A stretch of 64,000 bases of DNA from Lachnospiraceae bacterium (GTDB lineage Bacteria > Bacillota > Clostridia > Lachnospirales > Lachnospiraceae). Below are positions 18,828 to 64,000 of the stretch, piece by piece. The translations under genes and the position numbers were made by a program. Each line of letters begins with the position of its first letter. Position 1 is the stretch's first letter. The notes under the pieces are model-generated. The model had not been told where the DNA came from. It ran no database searches and worked only from the letters and a program-made list of their open reading frames with translations. Where the stretch lies: contig JAAWCS010000015.1 in NCBI GenBank assembly GCA_022793375.1, forward strand, positions 62,001-126,000, read 5' to 3'.

Positions 18828-18857
18828 CTTTATTTTTGTCCGTGTTTACAGGACAAT
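18828..18857 (-). repeat. leader repeat, degenerate copy (flavin reductase leader)
   Basis: Minus strand TTGTCCTGTAAACACGGACAA followed by AAAT and AAGGAGG. This is the second hairpin of the family found at 53828, 33834 and elsewhere: the stem is GTCC/GGAC instead of GCCC/GGGC, a compensatory change. It immediately precedes the Shine-Dalgarno site of the gene starting at 18813. Confidence 0.5.
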
Positions 18858-18878
18858 GATACGGACGTTTTTCACGCC

Positions 18879-18907
18879 TGTTTAGTCATAGCAATAATTT
18901 GTGTCAA
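18879..18907 (-). promoter_or_regulatory. promoter of the flavin reductase gene
   Basis: Minus strand TTGACA (18907-18902), 17-base spacer, TAAACA (18884-18879). It is back to back with the promoter of the response regulator gene. Confidence 0.6.
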
Positions 18908-23003: not shown

Positions 23004-23012
23004 ATTTTCCAC

Positions 23013-23092
23013 TTTCTTGTCCGTGTTTTCAGGACATATTGGGGTATCCCTGCGGTTTCTCTGCTTTTCCGCCCGCATTCGCAGGGCATAAT
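23013..23092 (-). repeat. leader repeat, two degenerate copies (pyrK leader)
   Basis: Copy one (23013-23060) has the compensated stem TGTCC/GGACA with loop TGAAAACAC, and a shortened first hairpin. Copy two (23063-23092) has ATGCCCTGCGAATGCGGGC. Same orientation relative to the gene as in the other loci, but without the GGAGG ending at the pyrK side. Confidence 0.55.
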
Positions 23093-23120
23093 CTGCTACT
23101 CTTTTGGCGCTTCGTTCTGC

Positions 23121-24212: not shown

Positions 24213-24284
24213 AGCACGAGACGGGACTCGAACCCGCGGCCCCCACCTTGGCAAGGTGGTGCTCCACCACTGAGCCACTCGTGC
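24213..24284 (-). tRNA. tRNA-Gly(GCC), third of three in transcription order
   Basis: 72 bases with acceptor stem GCACGAG/CTCGTGC, anticodon loop TTGCCAA with anticodon GCC, and GGTTCGAGTCC T-arm. CCA is not encoded. Identical in sequence to the other two copies. Confidence 0.95.
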
Positions 24285-24308
24285 ATTTCCAAATATGAAG
24301 TTATGAAG

Positions 24309-24380
24309 AGCACGAGACGGGACTCGAACCCGCGGCCCCCACCTTGGCAAGGTGGTGCTCCACCACTGAGCCACTCGTGC
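24309..24380 (-). tRNA. tRNA-Gly(GCC), second of three
   Basis: Same 72-base tRNA as the neighbours, separated by about 24 bases of similar AT-rich spacer (ATATGAAGTTA repeated in both spacers), which points to tandem duplication. Confidence 0.95.
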
Positions 24381-24404
24381 GTTTTCAAATATGAAGTTAC
24401 AAAG

Positions 24405-24476
24405 AGCACGAGACGGGACTCGAACCCGCGGCCCCCACCTTGGCAAGGTGGTGCTCCACCACTGAGCCACTCGTGC
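24405..24476 (-). tRNA. tRNA-Gly(GCC), first of three
   Basis: Promoter-proximal copy; anticodon GCC, CCA not encoded. The shared promoter lies about 30 bases upstream. Confidence 0.95.
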
Positions 24477-26411: not shown

Positions 26412-26459
26412 CCTCCTTACTGTCCGTGTTCGCAGGGCATGGGCCGCACCCGCAGGATG
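26412..26459 (-). repeat. leader repeat, degenerate copy (pepF leader)
   Basis: Minus strand ATGCCCTGCGAACACGGACAG followed by TAAGGAGGA and the pepF start. The stem has one weakened pair (C opposite A), and the first hairpin is altered. Confidence 0.5.
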
Positions 26460-26517
26460 TTTTATCCGCTGCCCGCCGGGGGAGCCTTCCTCCGTTTGGA
26501 CGGACTATGTTTTATTC

Positions 26518-30246: not shown

Positions 30247-30332
30247 CCTTATTTATGCCTGTGTTTTCAGGGCATACCGGGACACCCTTGTGGTGTTTCC
30301 TTATCTATGCCTGTATTCTCAATGCATACTTG
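30247..30332 (-). repeat. leader repeat, two degenerate copies (pfkB-operon leader)
   Basis: Copy one (30247-30298) has ACACC/GGTGT and TATGCC/GGCATA stems; copy two (30299-30332) keeps only the second hairpin with a mismatch. The period is again 52 bases and the orientation is sense to the kinase gene. Confidence 0.6.
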
Positions 30333-30342
30333 CTTTCTTTTT

Positions 30343-33833: not shown

Positions 33834-33937
33834 CCTCCTTTTTGCCCGTACTTTCAGGGCATAATGGGGCACCCTTGCGGTGCTTCCTCCTTTTTGCCCG
33901 TACTTTCAGGGCATAATGGGGCACCCTTGCGGTGCTT
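33834..33937 (-). repeat. leader repeat, two exact tandem copies (feoA leader)
   Basis: Units at 33834-33885 and 33886-33937 are identical over 52 bases. On the minus strand each has hairpin A (GCACC-GCAAG-GGTGC), then CCCATTA, hairpin B (TGCCC-TGAAAGTAC-GGGCA), then AAAAGGAGG. Hairpin A differs from the ACACC/GGTGT form at 53828 by a compensated pair. Confidence 0.85.
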
Positions 33938-52713: not shown

Positions 52714-53823
52714 TCAGCCGTTTAAAAAGCTGGTCACCGCCTGGCGCAGCAAGGCAACTTCACGGCGGCCAAATCTTCTCTTGGCCTGCCCAAGCGGCAT
52801 CGCCACCGGCACCGGCTCCATCAGATGGCGGTATTCTCTCGCCAGCTGCCAGCCTACGCTCTCAATGCTGCGCTCCCGCGCCACCTCATAACCGGCCGCC
52901 AGTACTTTGGGCAGCTCCTGTCTAAGCGCCCCCTCCAGTATCCCGGTCAGCTTTGCGGCAAATCCCTCCAGATCCTGAGCTTTATGCACCTGACGGCCAT
53001 CCGCCAGCCAGTCCTCGTAAATCGGGATATCGCGTACCAGCACCGGGCACTTCATGGCCAGGGCTTCCAGAAGCACGATGCCTTCCGTCTCCTCTTTTGT
53101 CAAAAACAGGAACACATCGCTGCCGCTGTAGGCGTCCCGCAGCTCTTCCTTGCAGATATAACCCGGAAAATGCAGGTTCGGCAGCTCTGTTTTCAGCGCT
53201 TCTTTGATGTGCGGCGGAATCATCGGTACGTCCAGGTCGCCGAACCAGATAAACTGATACCGGGGAAGCCGTTTAGCCAATTCGATAAAATCCATAATCC
53301 CCTTGCGGTCGATCGGCAGGCCCACGGACAGCACCACCTTATCCTCTGCCGTAAAACCGTATTTTTCGCGGAACGCGCGCCCGGCTTCCTCGTCTCTTTG
53401 GTAGAAAGACAGGTCAATGCCGTTGGAAACGCTGACCACCGGACGGCCCGTGTTATAATTGTCGATCAGTTTCTTCGCATAGGGCGTGGGGGCCACGATC
53501 ACATCCCCCTGGCGGTAGCACAGTGTCAGCCATTTTTTGAACAGCGGAGCTACCAGATTAGATCCGACAAAAGAATTACGAAAATCTTCTTCGGTCGAAT
53601 GCCCGTGATAGACGACCTTTTTGCCCATCCGATGCGCTTTGCGGCTCAGAAGAAAGGAGCCGGGAAAAATCGTATTGATATGAGCAATATCCCAATCGTC
53701 ATCGATATCTGTCGTGTATTCAACCTGGTTCTGGGACAGGGCCTCTTTCTGATGATAAATAGCCCGCCCGACGCCGCTGCGCTCGATCAAGTGCTGAGAG
53801 CCGGAGTACAACAAAACTTTCAT
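52714..53823 (-). CDS. glycosyltransferase family 4 (diacylglycerol glucosyltransferase-like)
   Basis: 369 residues, GT-B fold. N-terminal ERSGVGRAIYHQKEAL, acceptor region HGHSTEEDFRNSFVGSN, and the nucleotide-sugar site ETEGIVLLEALAMKCPVLV (E-x7-E). Closest in pattern to enzymes that add glucose to diacylglycerol as glycolipid anchors. The following membrane protein may act in the same envelope pathway. Confidence 0.82.
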   Translation of the reverse strand: MKVLLYSGSQHLIERSGVGRAIYHQKEALSQNQVEYTTDIDDDWDIAHINTIFPGSFLLSRKAHRMGKKVVYHGHSTEEDFRNSFVGSNLVAPLFKKWLTLCYRQGDVIVAPTPYAKKLIDNYNTGRPVVSVSNGIDLSFYQRDEEAGRAFREKYGFTAEDKVVLSVGLPIDRKGIMDFIELAKRLPRYQFIWFGDLDVPMIPPHIKEALKTELPNLHFPGYICKEELRDAYSGSDVFLFLTKEETEGIVLLEALAMKCPVLVRDIPIYEDWLADGRQVHKAQDLEGFAAKLTGILEGALRQELPKVLAAGYEVARERSIESVGWQLAREYRHLMEPVPVAMPLGQAKRRFGRREVALLRQAVTSFLNG

Positions 53824-53827
53824 CTTT

Positions 53828-53913
53828 CCTCCTTTTTGCCCGTGTTCTCAGGGCATAATGGGACACCCTTGCGGTGTTTCCTCCTTTTTGCCCGTGTTCT
53901 CAGGGCATAATGG
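53828..53913 (-). repeat. leader repeat, one full and one partial tandem copy (glycosyltransferase leader)
   Basis: Full unit 53828-53879 and partial unit 53880-53913, period 52. Minus strand: hairpin A ACACC-GCAAG-GGTGT, CCCATTA, hairpin B TGCCC-TGAGAACAC-GGGCA, AAAAAGGAGG, then the start codon. The partial copy abuts the stop codon of the upstream gene. Confidence 0.85.
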
Positions 53914-53918
53914 TGCGA

Positions 53919-54761
53919 CTACTGGAACAGGGACAAAGCCTTTAGTCCGATCGTATACAGCCCCAGGCTGTACAAAGCGATCGAAGCCGGTTTTCCCAAA
54001 AGGATAATGAGCGTCATTTTCTTTAAACTCATGCGTGTTAAGCCTGCCAGGTAGCACAGGAAATCATCGGGCGCCACCGGGAAGAAAATCGCCAGCGCAA
54101 AAAATTTGTCGAAGCGGTTGCCTTTTTCCAGCCATCCAACGTACTTTTCATAGGTACGGGGATTGGAAATGCTGCGCACAAACGGCGCTCCGTAACGTCT
54201 GGCCAGCAAAAACGCGCAGATCGAACCGGCGCAGATGCCAATGTAATTATAGACAAATCCCCATACCGGCCCGAATACCAGCACGCCGGCCAGGCAGCCG
54301 ATCGCTCCCGGCAGGACAGGCACCACGACCTGTATCCCCTGCACCAGGGTAAAAATAAACGGGGCCCAAAATCCGAAGCTGTTCAGAAAATTTTCCAGCG
54401 CTTCCTGCGACTGAAAAATCCCCTGCTTATAGCAGTACCAGACAAACAGTCCCATCAATATCAGTCCGACGGCCGTGCTGCCGTTCATCACCCATTTCAT
54501 GGTTCCTGCCAGCGCTTTCTCACGCTCGCTCATCGCCGCCGCTTCCGGCGCCGCCTGCAGCGCTCTTAGCTGCCGTTTTTCTCTGTGTCTGTCGATTCTT
54601 TCTTCTATTTTTTCCACTTTGCTCTCAATTTTATCTTCCACATTCTGACAGGCGTTTTTGACGGCTTCCCGGCCGACGGCCAATCCGCCCGCAGCGACGG
54701 CCGCAACCGCCGCGCTCTGCCCTGCCCCTATTTTCTGTCCCATTCCCAGCTGTTCTTTCAT
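53919..54761 (-). CDS. TVP38/TMEM64 (VTT/SNARE-associated) membrane protein
   Basis: 280 residues. A charged, helical N-terminal third (coiled coil, residues 30-75, with EDKIESKVEKIEERIDRHRE) precedes the VTT domain, whose signature is VVVPVLPGAIGCLAGVLVFG and FFPVAPDDFLCYLAG. VTT proteins are lipid scramblase-like. The long soluble N-terminus is an extra. It is followed by the glycosyltransferase. Confidence 0.85.
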   Translation of the reverse strand: MKEQLGMGQKIGAGQSAAVAAVAAGGLAVGREAVKNACQNVEDKIESKVEKIEERIDRHREKRQLRALQAAPEAAAMSEREKALAGTMKWVMNGSTAVGLILMGLFVWYCYKQGIFQSQEALENFLNSFGFWAPFIFTLVQGIQVVVPVLPGAIGCLAGVLVFGPVWGFVYNYIGICAGSICAFLLARRYGAPFVRSISNPRTYEKYVGWLEKGNRFDKFFALAIFFPVAPDDFLCYLAGLTRMSLKKMTLIILLGKPASIALYSLGLYTIGLKALSLFQ

Positions 54762-57984: not shown

Positions 57985-59514
57985 CTACAATCGAAACTCC
58001 TCCCACACCTTCTTCCAGTAATCCAAATAGCCGGCTTCTTCGACGCTCTCGGCCGCCTGAATCTCCACCCGCCCGATTTCTCTGCCGTTTAAAGAATAGA
58101 CCAGACTGCCTACGACGTCCCCCTCCGTCACCGGGGCCTGTATGGGTTCATTATAAATCCACTCTTTTGTAATCGCCGAAAAATCCTCCCCGCTGACGCT
58201 CAAATAGGAAAAGGGATCGCCGTAGCGCAGGGCAAAATTCTCCTGAACCCCATTTTCCAGCGGCAGAAGCGGCAGAGATTCCGGATTTTCGTCGGTGTAA
58301 AGCCGGCAGGAGGCAAAGCCGTAATTGAGGAGCGTCGCCGCTTCCGAAAAACGGATCTTGTAATCCTGCGCCGCCATGATTACGGCAATCAGCGTTACGC
58401 CGTCCCTGGTCGCTGTCGCCGATACGCAGTACTTTGCCAGACTGGTAGAACCGGTCTTGAGCCCATTACAGCCTTCATACTGCTTTAACAGCTTATTGGT
58501 ATTAGCCAGGCCAAATTCCGAACTGCCCTGCGCCGTATTATGCGTGATATTCTCCATCCAAATGCTGCTGTAGTCATGAATCTGCGGATAGCGGGTAATC
58601 AATTCACGGCTCATAATCGCCACGTCCCGCGCAGACGTCACATGGGTCGTGGAATCGGTTAAGCCGCAGCAGTCCTCAAACTTGGTCTGCGTCATCCCCA
58701 GTTCCCGGGCGCGCTCGTTCATCTGGCGCACAAATTCTGTCTCACTGCCGGCCAGGTGTTCGGCCATAGCCACCGACGCGTCGTTGCCGGAAGCTACTAC
58801 GATACATTTAATCATCGTTTCCACGGTCTGCTTTTCCCCCTCCTCCAGGTATACCTGGGAGCCGCCCATGGATTTGGCATACGCGCTGACCGTCACCTCA
58901 TCCTCCAGATGGATATTCCCCGATTCCAGGGCATCGAAGATCAGGATCAAAGTCATAATCTTGGTGATGCTGGCCGGGCTCAGCGCCTGATCCGCATTCT
59001 TTTCGTATACGATGGTCCCGGTAGAAGCCTCCATCAAAAGGGCCGATACGGCCGTTAAGCCAAAATCGGCTGTCTGCTCGGGCGCCGGCGGCGCTTCGGC
59101 CGGCGTCCCTGCATCGCCGGTCTGCGTATTTTCGGCCGCCCCGCTTTCCGCCGGAGCCGTCGGTGCGCCGGCCTGGGCGTTTTCGGCCGCTGTTGTCTCG
59201 GCCGGCGTTTGCGCCGTCTGGGCATTTTCGTTCTCCGACGGTGCTTGCGCGGCCTGACCATTCTCACCCGCGGCCGGCGTTTGTGCTGTCTGGGCATTTT
59301 CATTTGTGGCCGGCGTTTGACTATTCTCACCTGCGGCCGGCGTACTTCCGGCCGTGAGAGCCGCCGTGCTTTCCGTCCCCGTCAGCACTTCTTCCCCCTG
59401 GCCGTTATCGGCCGCCCAGGCGCTTTTGCCCCCCATACATCCGATCATCACAGCGGCCGCACACAGCCCCGCCAGCCATTTTTTTCCTGTCTGCTTTTTC
59501 TTGTTTTTTTTCAC
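57985..59514 (-). CDS. dacA: D-alanyl-D-alanine carboxypeptidase (S11) with low-complexity linker
   Basis: About 509 residues. A signal peptide (WLAGLCAAAVMIGCMGG), a repetitive Ala/Pro/Gln/Asn/Thr linker of about 110 residues (units like ENAQTAQTPA), then the catalytic domain with SPASITK, SGN and GLKTGST, and a PBP5 C-terminal domain with a short final helix. It trims peptidoglycan side chains. Start is uncertain: GTG 59514 has AGGTGG upstream; an ATG at 59568 is possible. Confidence 0.9.
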   Translation of the reverse strand: MKKNKKKQTGKKWLAGLCAAAVMIGCMGGKSAWAADNGQGEEVLTGTESTAALTAGSTPAAGENSQTPATNENAQTAQTPAAGENGQAAQAPSENENAQTAQTPAETTAAENAQAGAPTAPAESGAAENTQTGDAGTPAEAPPAPEQTADFGLTAVSALLMEASTGTIVYEKNADQALSPASITKIMTLILIFDALESGNIHLEDEVTVSAYAKSMGGSQVYLEEGEKQTVETMIKCIVVASGNDASVAMAEHLAGSETEFVRQMNERARELGMTQTKFEDCCGLTDSTTHVTSARDVAIMSRELITRYPQIHDYSSIWMENITHNTAQGSSEFGLANTNKLLKQYEGCNGLKTGSTSLAKYCVSATATRDGVTLIAVIMAAQDYKIRFSEAATLLNYGFASCRLYTDENPESLPLLPLENGVQENFALRYGDPFSYLSVSGEDFSAITKEWIYNEPIQAPVTEGDVVGSLVYSLNGREIGRVEIQAAESVEEAGYLDYWKKVWEEFRL

Positions 59515-61127: not shown

Positions 61128-61179
61128 CCTCCTTCTTGCCCGTGTTCTCAGGGCATAGTGGGACACCCTTGCGGTGTTT
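61128..61179 (-). repeat. leader repeat, one full copy (phosphatase leader)
   Basis: Same as the 53828 copy with three or four differences; ACACC/GGTGT and TGCCC/GGGCA stems intact. The following GGAGGAAACACC before the ATG looks like the first part of a second unit. Confidence 0.8.
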
Positions 61180-61959: not shown

Positions 61960-64000
61960 TCAATGCCCGCCGTTCCCGCTTCTCTGCCCTTTCTTCTTTA
62001 GCAGCGCCGACGTATCCAAAGCCGGTTCCGTGCTCTTTTGCCTTTCGGCCCTCGCCCGCTTGCGCGCCGTGTCATGCGCCCCTTTGCTCACAGTCTCATT
62101 CCAACCGGCTTGCGCATTTGCATTTTCCTGCCCGCCGGCGTCCGCTCCTGCACCTTCCATCCGGCCGCTTTTGGCATTTGCATTTTCCTGCCCGCCGGCT
62201 TCGGCTCCTGCACCTTCTCTCCGGCCGCTTTTGGCATTTACATCTTCCCGCCGGCCGGCTTCCGCTTTCGCATCTTCTCTCCGGCTTACATCCGCACTTG
62301 TCTCTTCGTCCCGGCCGGCCCTGTTCCTCGTATCCGCGTACTGCGGCCCTCCTGCCTTTTTCTCCTTCCGCATCCGCCGCCCTTCCGCGATCCGGCGGTA
62401 TGCCCCGCTCTCCTGCGGACGGAACTGAAAACGGCGCACCGCAATGTCCACGACGAACCACAAAAGTGCCAGCAGAAGCAGCCATTTTGTCAAATCGTAC
62501 CGCTCTTGCCCCGTCCTTACCCGGTTTTGCCAGATATCCTCTTCCCGGTCAAGCATTACGCCGTACCGTTCTATAAAACGCTCAAAGCCTGCGGAATCGA
62601 TGCCGAATTTATATTCGTCCGCGTACTGCACCGCCGCCGCGGTCGTCAGCACGCCGGTGACCTCGCCGTCGTCCGTCCGGCGGATGTTCAGATGGTATAC
62701 TCCCGTAAGTTCCGTTGACAGCTTTGTCTCGTAACGCCCCGGCGCCGTGGCCGGAAGCGGCTGCGTCCATGTGTTTCCCTCCGGATCCGTGTAGACCGCT
62801 TCCACGCGGGTCTGTTCTCCATACTCCGCCGCTTCGTATACCAGGCTGGTTACGCCGCCGGCCGTCCTTATATCCGCCGAATCCTCGCCGATTGCCGCGT
62901 TCCCGACACTGTAATCGAGAATCCGCTTCCACAGCTGCACATAATCGTCCTCTCCCGCGTAGCCGGCTGTCCAGCGGTTGGTCACATCGCTGTTCCAGGC
63001 CACGGTATGGCCCAGGCCGTACTGCATCACCGTGAGCACCGGATCGTCTTTTTCCGAGGCAATAAGCACCTGCGAAACGCTTTTCGGCGTAGCGCTGACA
63101 TAGCCGTAGAGGGCCGGCCAGCCGTCCGCAAACAGTCCGCGGGTGATATCGCTGCCGCCGTTTACCGCCAGGCGAAACGTGCCGTTCTGCAGATAGGTAT
63201 CCCCGCTTAGAAATACCTCCTGCGCAAAAATTTTCGGAATATCCGAGGCAAAATCCGAATAATAATAACGCCCGCCGCAGCGATCCGCCAGCTGTTTCAA
63301 AAGCCGCTTGTCCGAATCGCTGCCCACCGCCACCGTGGAAAGCGTGACCTCCGCGTCGTTATAAGCGCTCATAATCTCCCGGTAATTGTTGCTTTCGCCC
63401 TGGCCGTCGGTTAAAAGGACGACATGGCGTATATCGGCAGCGCACCCGGCGGCCCCCGCAAGCGCTTCTTTTAAGGCCGGCCGGATGGTCGTTCCGCCGC
63501 CCTCGGCAACCGCCGCGATCTGATCCTTAATGGTTTCCTTATCCGACGCCTGCACCGGTTTCACGAGCCAGCTGTAGGTATCGTCAAAGGTCAGCACTCC
63601 CACGTAATCCGTACTGCGCATCTGGTCGACCGCTGTCTGCGCGGCCGTAATCGCCAAATCCAGATTGGTGGCGCCGCCGCCCGCGTCCATACTCATACTG
63701 CCGGAATGGTCGATTACCATAATCATCGCCGTCACCGGTACTTCGTCGACGCCCCGCAGCTCCATCTCCACCGGCAGCACCGTCTCCAGTACGCTGTCCC
63801 GATAACCGCCCAGCGCATAGCTGTTTTCTCCGCCCAGGCAGACCAGGCCGCCGCCGTAATCCTTCACATACGTTTCGATCTGCTCCAAAAATCCCTGCGG
63901 CAAATCGGTCAGAAACACGTTTTCCAGGACAATGCTCTTAAATTCCAGCAAATCCGCGAGCGTATCCGGGGCATTGTACGCGGATACCGTCTCAAAATGA
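61960..64000 (-). CDS. VWA domain membrane protein (5' end outside window)
   Basis: At least 679 residues; the frame is open to the right edge. The VWA domain has the MIDAS motif VIDHSGSMS with later T and D residues (GGGTTIRPA; LLTDGQGES). A glutamine-amidotransferase-like segment lies before it (GGGLVCLGGENSYALGGY). After the VWA and a beta-rich region there is one membrane helix (WLLLLALLWFVVDIAV) and a highly charged tail of about 130 residues with 20-residue repeats. The topology places VWA outside. BatA-like or GATase-VWA protein; function unknown. Confidence 0.82.
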   Translation of the reverse strand, partial: HFETVSAYNAPDTLADLLEFKSIVLENVFLTDLPQGFLEQIETYVKDYGGGLVCLGGENSYALGGYRDSVLETVLPVEMELRGVDEVPVTAMIMVIDHSGSMSMDAGGGATNLDLAITAAQTAVDQMRSTDYVGVLTFDDTYSWLVKPVQASDKETIKDQIAAVAEGGGTTIRPALKEALAGAAGCAADIRHVVLLTDGQGESNNYREIMSAYNDAEVTLSTVAVGSDSDKRLLKQLADRCGGRYYYSDFASDIPKIFAQEVFLSGDTYLQNGTFRLAVNGGSDITRGLFADGWPALYGYVSATPKSVSQVLIASEKDDPVLTVMQYGLGHTVAWNSDVTNRWTAGYAGEDDYVQLWKRILDYSVGNAAIGEDSADIRTAGGVTSLVYEAAEYGEQTRVEAVYTDPEGNTWTQPLPATAPGRYETKLSTELTGVYHLNIRRTDDGEVTGVLTTAAAVQYADEYKFGIDSAGFERFIERYGVMLDREEDIWQNRVRTGQERYDLTKWLLLLALLWFVVDIAVRRFQFRPQESGAYRRIAEGRRMRKEKKAGGPQYADTRNRAGRDEETSADVSRREDAKAEAGRREDVNAKSGRREGAGAEAGGQENANAKSGRMEGAGADAGGQENANAQAGWNETVSKGAHDTARKRARAERQKSTEPALDTSALLKKKGQRSGNGGH
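62101..62290 (-). repeat. 60-base tandem repeat within the VWA gene tail
   Basis: About three units of 60 bases (20 residues; ENANAKSGRMEGAGADAGGQ type). The 26 or so bases around GCATTTGCATTTTCCTGCCC recur at a spacing of 60. Codes for a hydrophilic Ala/Gly/Glu/Asn/Arg tail. Confidence 0.8.

Follow-up and report, generated by a model that had tools for sequence, protein, structure and literature searches.

A two-hairpin repeat family placed before start codons in Lachnospiraceae

What is the roughly 52-base unit that stands, in sense orientation, in the 5' leaders of seven minus-strand genes within 64,000 nucleotides of a Lachnospiraceae genome (this whole stretch being the window referred to below), and what might it do there? 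The initial annotation, made from the letters alone, described two hairpins with compensated stem changes and offered two explanations, selection on the RNA structure or a spread of the units as structured elements. Both halves of this proposal hold to some degree, because covariation across genera and sense placement at start codons are found together with presence and absence differences between relatives and rapid turnover. In Lachnospiraceae the unit makes up a genuine family of structured repeats that keeps to start codons and has no match in Rfam. Missing from the earlier account were the tandem arrays of up to seven units, the spread over many genera and a near-invariant AUG.

The unit and its tandem arrays

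All seven leader sites are genuine. The covariance model R1, built from an alignment of 81 units of the same genome (A1; five of them from the window, those at 18828 and 26412 not included), gives 11 matches in the window (E up to 0.01); they cover every site and lie without exception on the minus strand, the high scores of the five window units following by construction from their presence in the model. The segment 53828-53913 before the glycosyltransferase gene comprises one full unit (53828-53879, minus strand, 81.8 bits), which lies nearest the gene start at 53823, and most of a second, distal, 5'-degenerate unit (53880-53931, minus strand, 45.7 bits), overlapping the VTT-domain gene upstream at its stop codon (53919). 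In the full unit, the own-genome alignment places hairpin A at 53863-53877 (stem ACACC/GGTGT, loop of 5 bases) and hairpin B at 53837-53855 (stem TGCCC/GGGCA, loop of 9 bases), with an AUG at the foot of hairpin B (53854-53856) and a purine tail at 53828-53836 that contains the Shine-Dalgarno tract and whose columns are array-specific; the purine tail AAAAAGGAGG lies immediately upstream of the gene start.

The remaining sites, all likewise on the minus strand, range from well-kept to degenerate copies: one unit before a Y_phosphatase3 gene (61128-61179, 79.2 bits), an array of two units 34 nt ahead of feoA (33834-33937, units at 33834 and 33886, 72.9 bits each), a unit before the pfkB-type kinase gene (30247-30298, 66.6 bits) with a weak second copy in the same leader (30299-30340, 19.4 bits), and, in the pyrK leader (23009-23112), a unit at 23009 (54.6 bits) with a weak second copy at 23061 (18.8 bits). 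Degenerate single units precede the M3 peptidase gene pepF (26412-26463, 24.7 bits) and the gene behind 18828-18879 (31.2 bits); the product of the latter gene has FAD_binding_2 and FMN_bind domains, which slightly corrects the label flavin reductase. The window also holds three identical tandem tRNA genes with a period of 96 bases (24213-24476) and two minisatellites (62114-62285 and 59199-59319, periods 60 and 36).

The genome as a whole (G000; 3.42 Mb in 88 contigs, 92.6% complete) is rich in the unit. A BLAST search with the glycosyltransferase leader returns 73 matches and R1 returns 189 at E up to 1; arrays were fetched around 150 of these, and on the fetched arrays together with the window R1 gives 188 matches at E up to 0.01, all seven sites included. 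The 194 matches of the profile search group into at least 86 arrays of one to seven tandem units: 23 arrays of one unit, 30 of two, 25 of three and six of four, with a single array each of five and of seven. Each unit runs from AA through hairpin A (ACACC, 5-base loop, GGTGT) and a link of ACC or CCC plus three free bases to the AUG, whose U and G are the first bases of hairpin B (TGCCC, 9-base loop, GGGCA), and ends in the purine tail, which contains the Shine-Dalgarno tract or precedes it. The stem variants that had been named for both hairpins, and the length of about 52 bases, are present in the aligned units. Units abut without spacer at a period of 51-53, which also sets them apart from a CRISPR array.

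Tail columns are far more alike within arrays (identity 0.91) than between them (0.56), and the arrays are therefore read as growing by tandem duplication in place; the corresponding figures for the hairpins are 0.94-0.95 and 0.86. Among the 63 multi-unit arrays, the last, gene-proximal unit outscores the first in 56 and the reverse applies in five, as would be expected if the unit adjacent to the gene is retained, though 5' truncation on insertion would look alike. Contigs C86, C59 and C55 (loci L023, L228 and L221) end inside or beside arrays, so these may be assembly breaks that hide further units.

Covarying stems, the AUG and placement at start codons

The compensated stem changes noted in the seven leaders extend across genera. 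Besides A1, two further alignments were used, A2 consisting of relatives' units found by covariance model and A3 of units from named relatives; both were fitted to the model structure, and the shuffles used for comparison leave relatedness in place. Base pairs form in 98.5% of cells in A1, 94.3% in A2 and 92.0% in A3 (98.3% for hairpin B and 85.8% for hairpin A in A3), and two-sided changes number 27, 74 and 95, against 4.1, 21.6 and 31.6 after shuffling. None of 500 shuffles reached the native count in any of the three alignments, and the signal is lost when pairing partners are slid. Covariation of both hairpins is thereby confirmed, and the covarying stems that characterise a structured cis-acting leader RNA are present in A1, A2 and A3. 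As A3 was picked by a pattern demanding GGGT, CC, ATG and AAGGAAAGGRG, conservation at those positions was not counted from it. Base pairing between a GG upstream of hairpin A and a CC downstream of it was considered and dropped, because many arrays, by reading, have no such GG.

Mismatched cells bear on which strand is structured. In hairpin B, over the three alignments, sense G.U wobbles outnumber A.C by 48 to 11 (18 to 8 without the foot pair), a bias that leans towards the sense RNA as the folded molecule. Hairpin A has 32 G.U and 100 A.C cells (26 and 14 without the second pair), since its second pair is mostly C.A outside the own genus (70 of 115 A3 cells), which does not fit a plain sense-RNA helix at that position. 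This pair, 4-46 in A3, faces a 3' arm that outside the own genus is often GGTATACC, a palindrome at the DNA level. The palindrome and the C.A mismatch that it leaves in the RNA stem of other genera are what favours a DNA site, in which palindromic parts would bind a DNA protein and the RNA fold would be incidental; we regard this as very improbable, given that the start codon sets the position of the arrays, that 24 of 86 follow the ends of sense frames, some of them inside apparent operons, and that the wobble bias of hairpin B favours the sense strand.

The AUG at the foot of hairpin B occurs in 81/81 full A1 units, in 168 of 194 own-genome matches and in 56 of 63 A2 units, R1 being a model with a preference of its own for AUG. 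The foot pair in A1 keeps its U without exception, and the partner base varies. An AUG followed by one codon and a stop is found in 138 of the 168 own-genome units with AUG, compared with 24/51 in A2 and 27/125 in A3; it therefore looks like a trait of this lineage's copies, and a conserved mini-ORF was rejected. Insulation of the ribosome site was rejected as well: the predicted unpaired probability of the site averages 0.583 in native leaders, 0.583 with the unit core shuffled and 0.567 with it deleted, the native value lying above the shuffled one in 36 and above the deleted one in 43 of 76 leaders.

Placement was judged with mechanical frames rather than gene calls, a frame being opened by the first start codon followed by at least 60 codons, or at least 20 if cut by an end. 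Downstream of 80 of the 86 own-genome arrays there is a sense start codon; in 79 cases it falls between -4 and +34 nt relative to the array end, and in the array L233 it is 69 nt away, opening a 22-codon frame that runs off the contig. Of the other six arrays, four (L014, L023, L228, L236) are truncated where the fetched stretch or the contig stops, and the array at L015:7670 precedes a frame of 58 codons. At L225 (1071-1174) a terminator-like hairpin with a T run directly follows the array and no frame lies behind it, which suggests a decayed gene or an orphan leader. Antisense or 3'-end placement, which had been named as evidence that would speak against a leader family, is not the rule: 81 of 82 judgeable arrays lead a sense frame, against 30/85 in the opposite-strand control, in which a start was sought within 90 nt of the array's 5' end. 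Among named relatives, a sample chosen by a pattern that includes the Shine-Dalgarno-like tract, a sense start lies within 90 nt in 82 of 85 distinct arrays (the exceptions being L109, L124 and L157), compared with 19/85 on the opposite strand.

Copies inside genes, the other condition named as speaking against the family, were looked for with mechanical frames too. Frames of 100 or more codons cross 31 arrays in antisense and 14 in sense, the latter being often downstream frames that simply stay open farther upstream. Placement inside genes is, by such frames, unusual though possible at some loci. At L220 (1098-1200) an upstream frame of 229 codons, by reading a phosphatase-like protein, runs in frame through two units into the downstream Thiamine_BP gene, and the ortholog in G004 has a stop there. 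A sense frame of at least 150 codons ends between -60 and +20 nt of the array start at 24 of the 86 arrays, which therefore sit in apparent operons; 12 of these frames end inside the array's first 20 nt.

The genes behind the arrays are mostly unrelated. Of 80 downstream proteins scanned in the own genome, 69 have a Pfam match and 11 have none, and the 69 have 62 different top families, a diversity at odds with the coherent gene set of a metabolite riboswitch. Ribosomal protein L14, DnaN, leucyl-tRNA synthetase, thioredoxin, FliM, ThiC and MatE are among the products. FAD_binding_2 is the top family in five proteins, and SBP_bac_5, ABC_tran and an MtrC/MtrF-like domain in two each. The FAD_binding_2 flavoproteins lie behind the arrays at 18828 in the window and at L010, L029, L038 and L043 (weakly also L221), and their recurrence may reflect a large family in this genome, a preference of the element, or genes duplicated together with their leader.

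Turnover, spread and rival readings

Searching the genome and its relatives with a covariance model, as the initial annotation had proposed, finds the unit in many Lachnospiraceae genera. In a survey of 299 genomes of the family, inferred to be Lachnospiraceae and including the own genome, R1 matches at least 26 and a wider model, R2, at least 41; a class survey finds at least 6 of 391 genomes matching, three of them outside the family. Both surveys score 15-19 candidates per genome, and the counts are therefore lower bounds. One of the outside matches, G633 (L343), looks by reading like a genuine single unit before a transporter-like gene, and those in G467 and G646 are probably due to chance. 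The 80 loci listed of at least 114 mostly carry Lachnospiraceae or unspecific Clostridia labels; named carriers among the matches listed include Lachnospiraceae bacterium A2, Eubacterium sp. 14-2, E. plexicaudatum, Lacrimispora, Diplocloster and others, as well as Candidatus Gallacutalibacter, which is without an NCBI family placement. Counted with R2 at E up to 1e-4, the members of the genus hold 161 (own genome), 126, 15, 11, 5, 3 and 0 matches.

Orthologous loci differ in what they carry. The glycosyltransferase array is absent from G004, whose flanks are 85-88% identical, and from five further members of the genus; where the own genome reads TAGT, two units and then the Shine-Dalgarno tract, G004 has TAGT-AAAGGAGG. 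G004 has units at 14 of 29 orthologous sites and none by profile at 15, some of the latter with visible remnants (for example L220, L230:1493 and L239), and G006 has a unit at one of 22 and none by profile at 21; 13 of these 51 sites are without upstream synteny. Unit number also differs between close copies, with three units at the MatE locus in the own genome and two in G004 at 98% identity, one unit at L104 and three at L118 before a gene that by reading is MatE-like (flanks 99.7% identical over 600 nt and 99.8% over 900 nt), and two units at L099 and one at L132 at 98% identity. The arrays thus do not form a stable regulon, as a close relative is without the array, counts in the genus run from 0 to 161, and loci differ by whole units. 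Within-genome core identities were taken from G000, G004 and G006, since other genomes in places mix units of one array. Different arrays of the own genome share a core identity of 0.85, compared with a mean of 0.71 between genomes, and the arrays of G004 reach 0.70, no higher than between genomes; the own-genome excess is therefore not general, and recent dispersal is not seen in G004 by core identity.

Some loci recur between species. Units stand before a Resolvase/Recombinase gene at L130, L131 and L169 and before a DUF6870 gene at L099, L132, L148 and L164, in each case at similar loci in several genomes, and such loci are possible vehicles for transfer between species. Carriage by plasmids or phages was considered and set aside: one array-bearing query against each of the plasmid and phage collections gave no match, and two contigs of a viral-contig collection match by pattern.

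The reading that we favour, with a chance that we put at about even, is a cis-acting mRNA leader that would tune translation initiation or stability while dispersing and expanding in tandem. The 52-base unit would fold as two hairpins in the mRNA, in the living cell as in prediction, and would act in cis beside the Shine-Dalgarno site on translation initiation or mRNA stability of the downstream gene, the number of units presumably setting the size of the effect; units would reach new genes by dispersal from site to site within the genome and then multiply in place by tandem expansion. It is favoured by the sense placement at start codons, the covarying stems, the wobble bias of hairpin B, the near-invariant AUG, the better-kept gene-proximal unit, the turnover and the higher core identity between arrays of the own genome. 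The folding result, the A.C excess in hairpin A, the occurrence of orthologous genes without arrays (21/22 in G006, 15/29 in G004) and the core identity in G004 count against it. Its main rival, which we find doubtful though worth serious attention, is a parasitic or mobile miniature element that inserts at Shine-Dalgarno purine tracts and brings its own tract, with no selectable effect, its hairpins serving the mover. The range from 0 to 161 matches among genus members, the empty glycosyltransferase locus in G004 and five others, the copies at similar Resolvase/Recombinase and DUF6870 loci and the mostly unrelated downstream genes all agree with such an element, and a moving single-stranded DNA hairpin would covary too. 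The searches for a mover count against it. Neither of the two genomes richest in units, G000 and G004 (the latter only 72% complete), has a match to PF01797, the Y1 transposase domain of the REP/IS200-IS605 type, which is present in 4/14 of the genomes searched, the control genomes giving a match in 5/14. For the reverse transcriptase domain RVT_1 a single match is found in G000 (38.4 bits against a cut-off of 29.6) and none in G004, and a reverse-transcribed insertion, suggested by the 5'-truncated first units, is not supported. The folding, Y1 and reverse transcriptase tests together thus support neither an insulating role nor a known mobiliser. That 81 of 82 judgeable arrays lead a sense frame also speaks against a parasite, whereas pneumococcal repeats are described as over-represented between convergent genes (PMC3049150).

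Whole-unit differences between near-identical loci (L104/L118, L099/L132, MatE in G000 and G004), together with tails common to the units of one array, raise a further reading, a tandem-repeat contingency locus in which ordinary slippage or unequal recombination would add or remove units, expression depending on how many there are and not on how they fold. This seems improbable, as it leaves unexplained both the cross-genus covariation of the two stems and the acquisition of a first unit by so many genes. Less improbable, yet still unlikely, is a mobile leader homing to ribosome sites, which would enter genomes at Shine-Dalgarno sites before any gene, bring a Shine-Dalgarno tract and an AUG of its own, and form a tandem row of ribosome landing pads whose length sets expression; if true, gut Lachnospiraceae would possess a rheostat of translation that acts genome-wide and can be transferred.

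Repeats interspersed in genomes, those of pneumococci for example, mostly lie where they do least harm. The unit described here sits at a gene's most sensitive spot, the ribosome site, even before such basic genes as those for ribosomal protein L14, the DNA clamp and leucyl-tRNA synthetase. The number of units can change while the flanks hardly do. If a cis-acting leader of this kind affects expression, the arrays would give an abundant gut family a simple, evolvable and possibly horizontally moving means of retuning many of its genes, and would supply a natural set of leaders, so far untapped, for engineering Lachnospiraceae.

Comparison with described repeats

The initial annotation recognised no described family, and the searches agree. 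With Rfam 15 at gathering score the window yields tRNAs and nothing else, and a search of five loci at E up to 5 gives three weak matches, none of them on a unit; some Rfam families are likewise structured 5' leaders. A literature search of open-licence PMC papers found no paper on this 52-base repeat. REP and REPIN elements are extragenic palindromes, often in inverted pairs, associated with RAYT (Y1) transposases. The unit resembles them as a short hairpin repeat present in many copies and unevenly between relatives, and differs in that its copies are direct tandem units, in sense, before start codons; an assignment to RAYT-mobilised REP/REPIN elements was rejected, PF01797 not being found in G000 or G004 and each array having its units in direct tandem and in one orientation. 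Terminal inverted repeats, as in MITEs, are not seen by reading, the unit ends being AAACACC and AATAAGG. The purine tracts on either side of the units and the array-specific tails might be taken for target site duplications, but tails shared by tandem units would look alike, and clean empty sites are few.

Two described repeats come closer. The pneumococcal BOX element is an interspersed, structured repeat in which one module, boxB, is repeated in tandem a variable number of times; transcription has been shown for some copies, and they can affect expression (PMC3049150). BOX has distinct end modules (PMC3049150), whereas in the Lachnospiraceae arrays, which are placed at start codons, no shared end module like boxA or boxC was seen by reading of the flanks. 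The TAACTGA heptamer repeats of marine Beggiatoaceae (PMC4679880) form 169 sets of two to six direct repeats in one genome, most of them forward and just upstream of start codons, with no pattern among the downstream genes, which include ribosomal protein genes, with a patchy distribution, and with no mechanism known. They are 7 bases long, have no particular predicted RNA structure and are mostly without a Shine-Dalgarno sequence, whereas the Lachnospiraceae unit has 52 bases and two covarying hairpins and adjoins or contains the Shine-Dalgarno site. The TAACTGA repeat is the nearest described case by placement, and the pneumococcal BOX the nearest by its modular tandem build.
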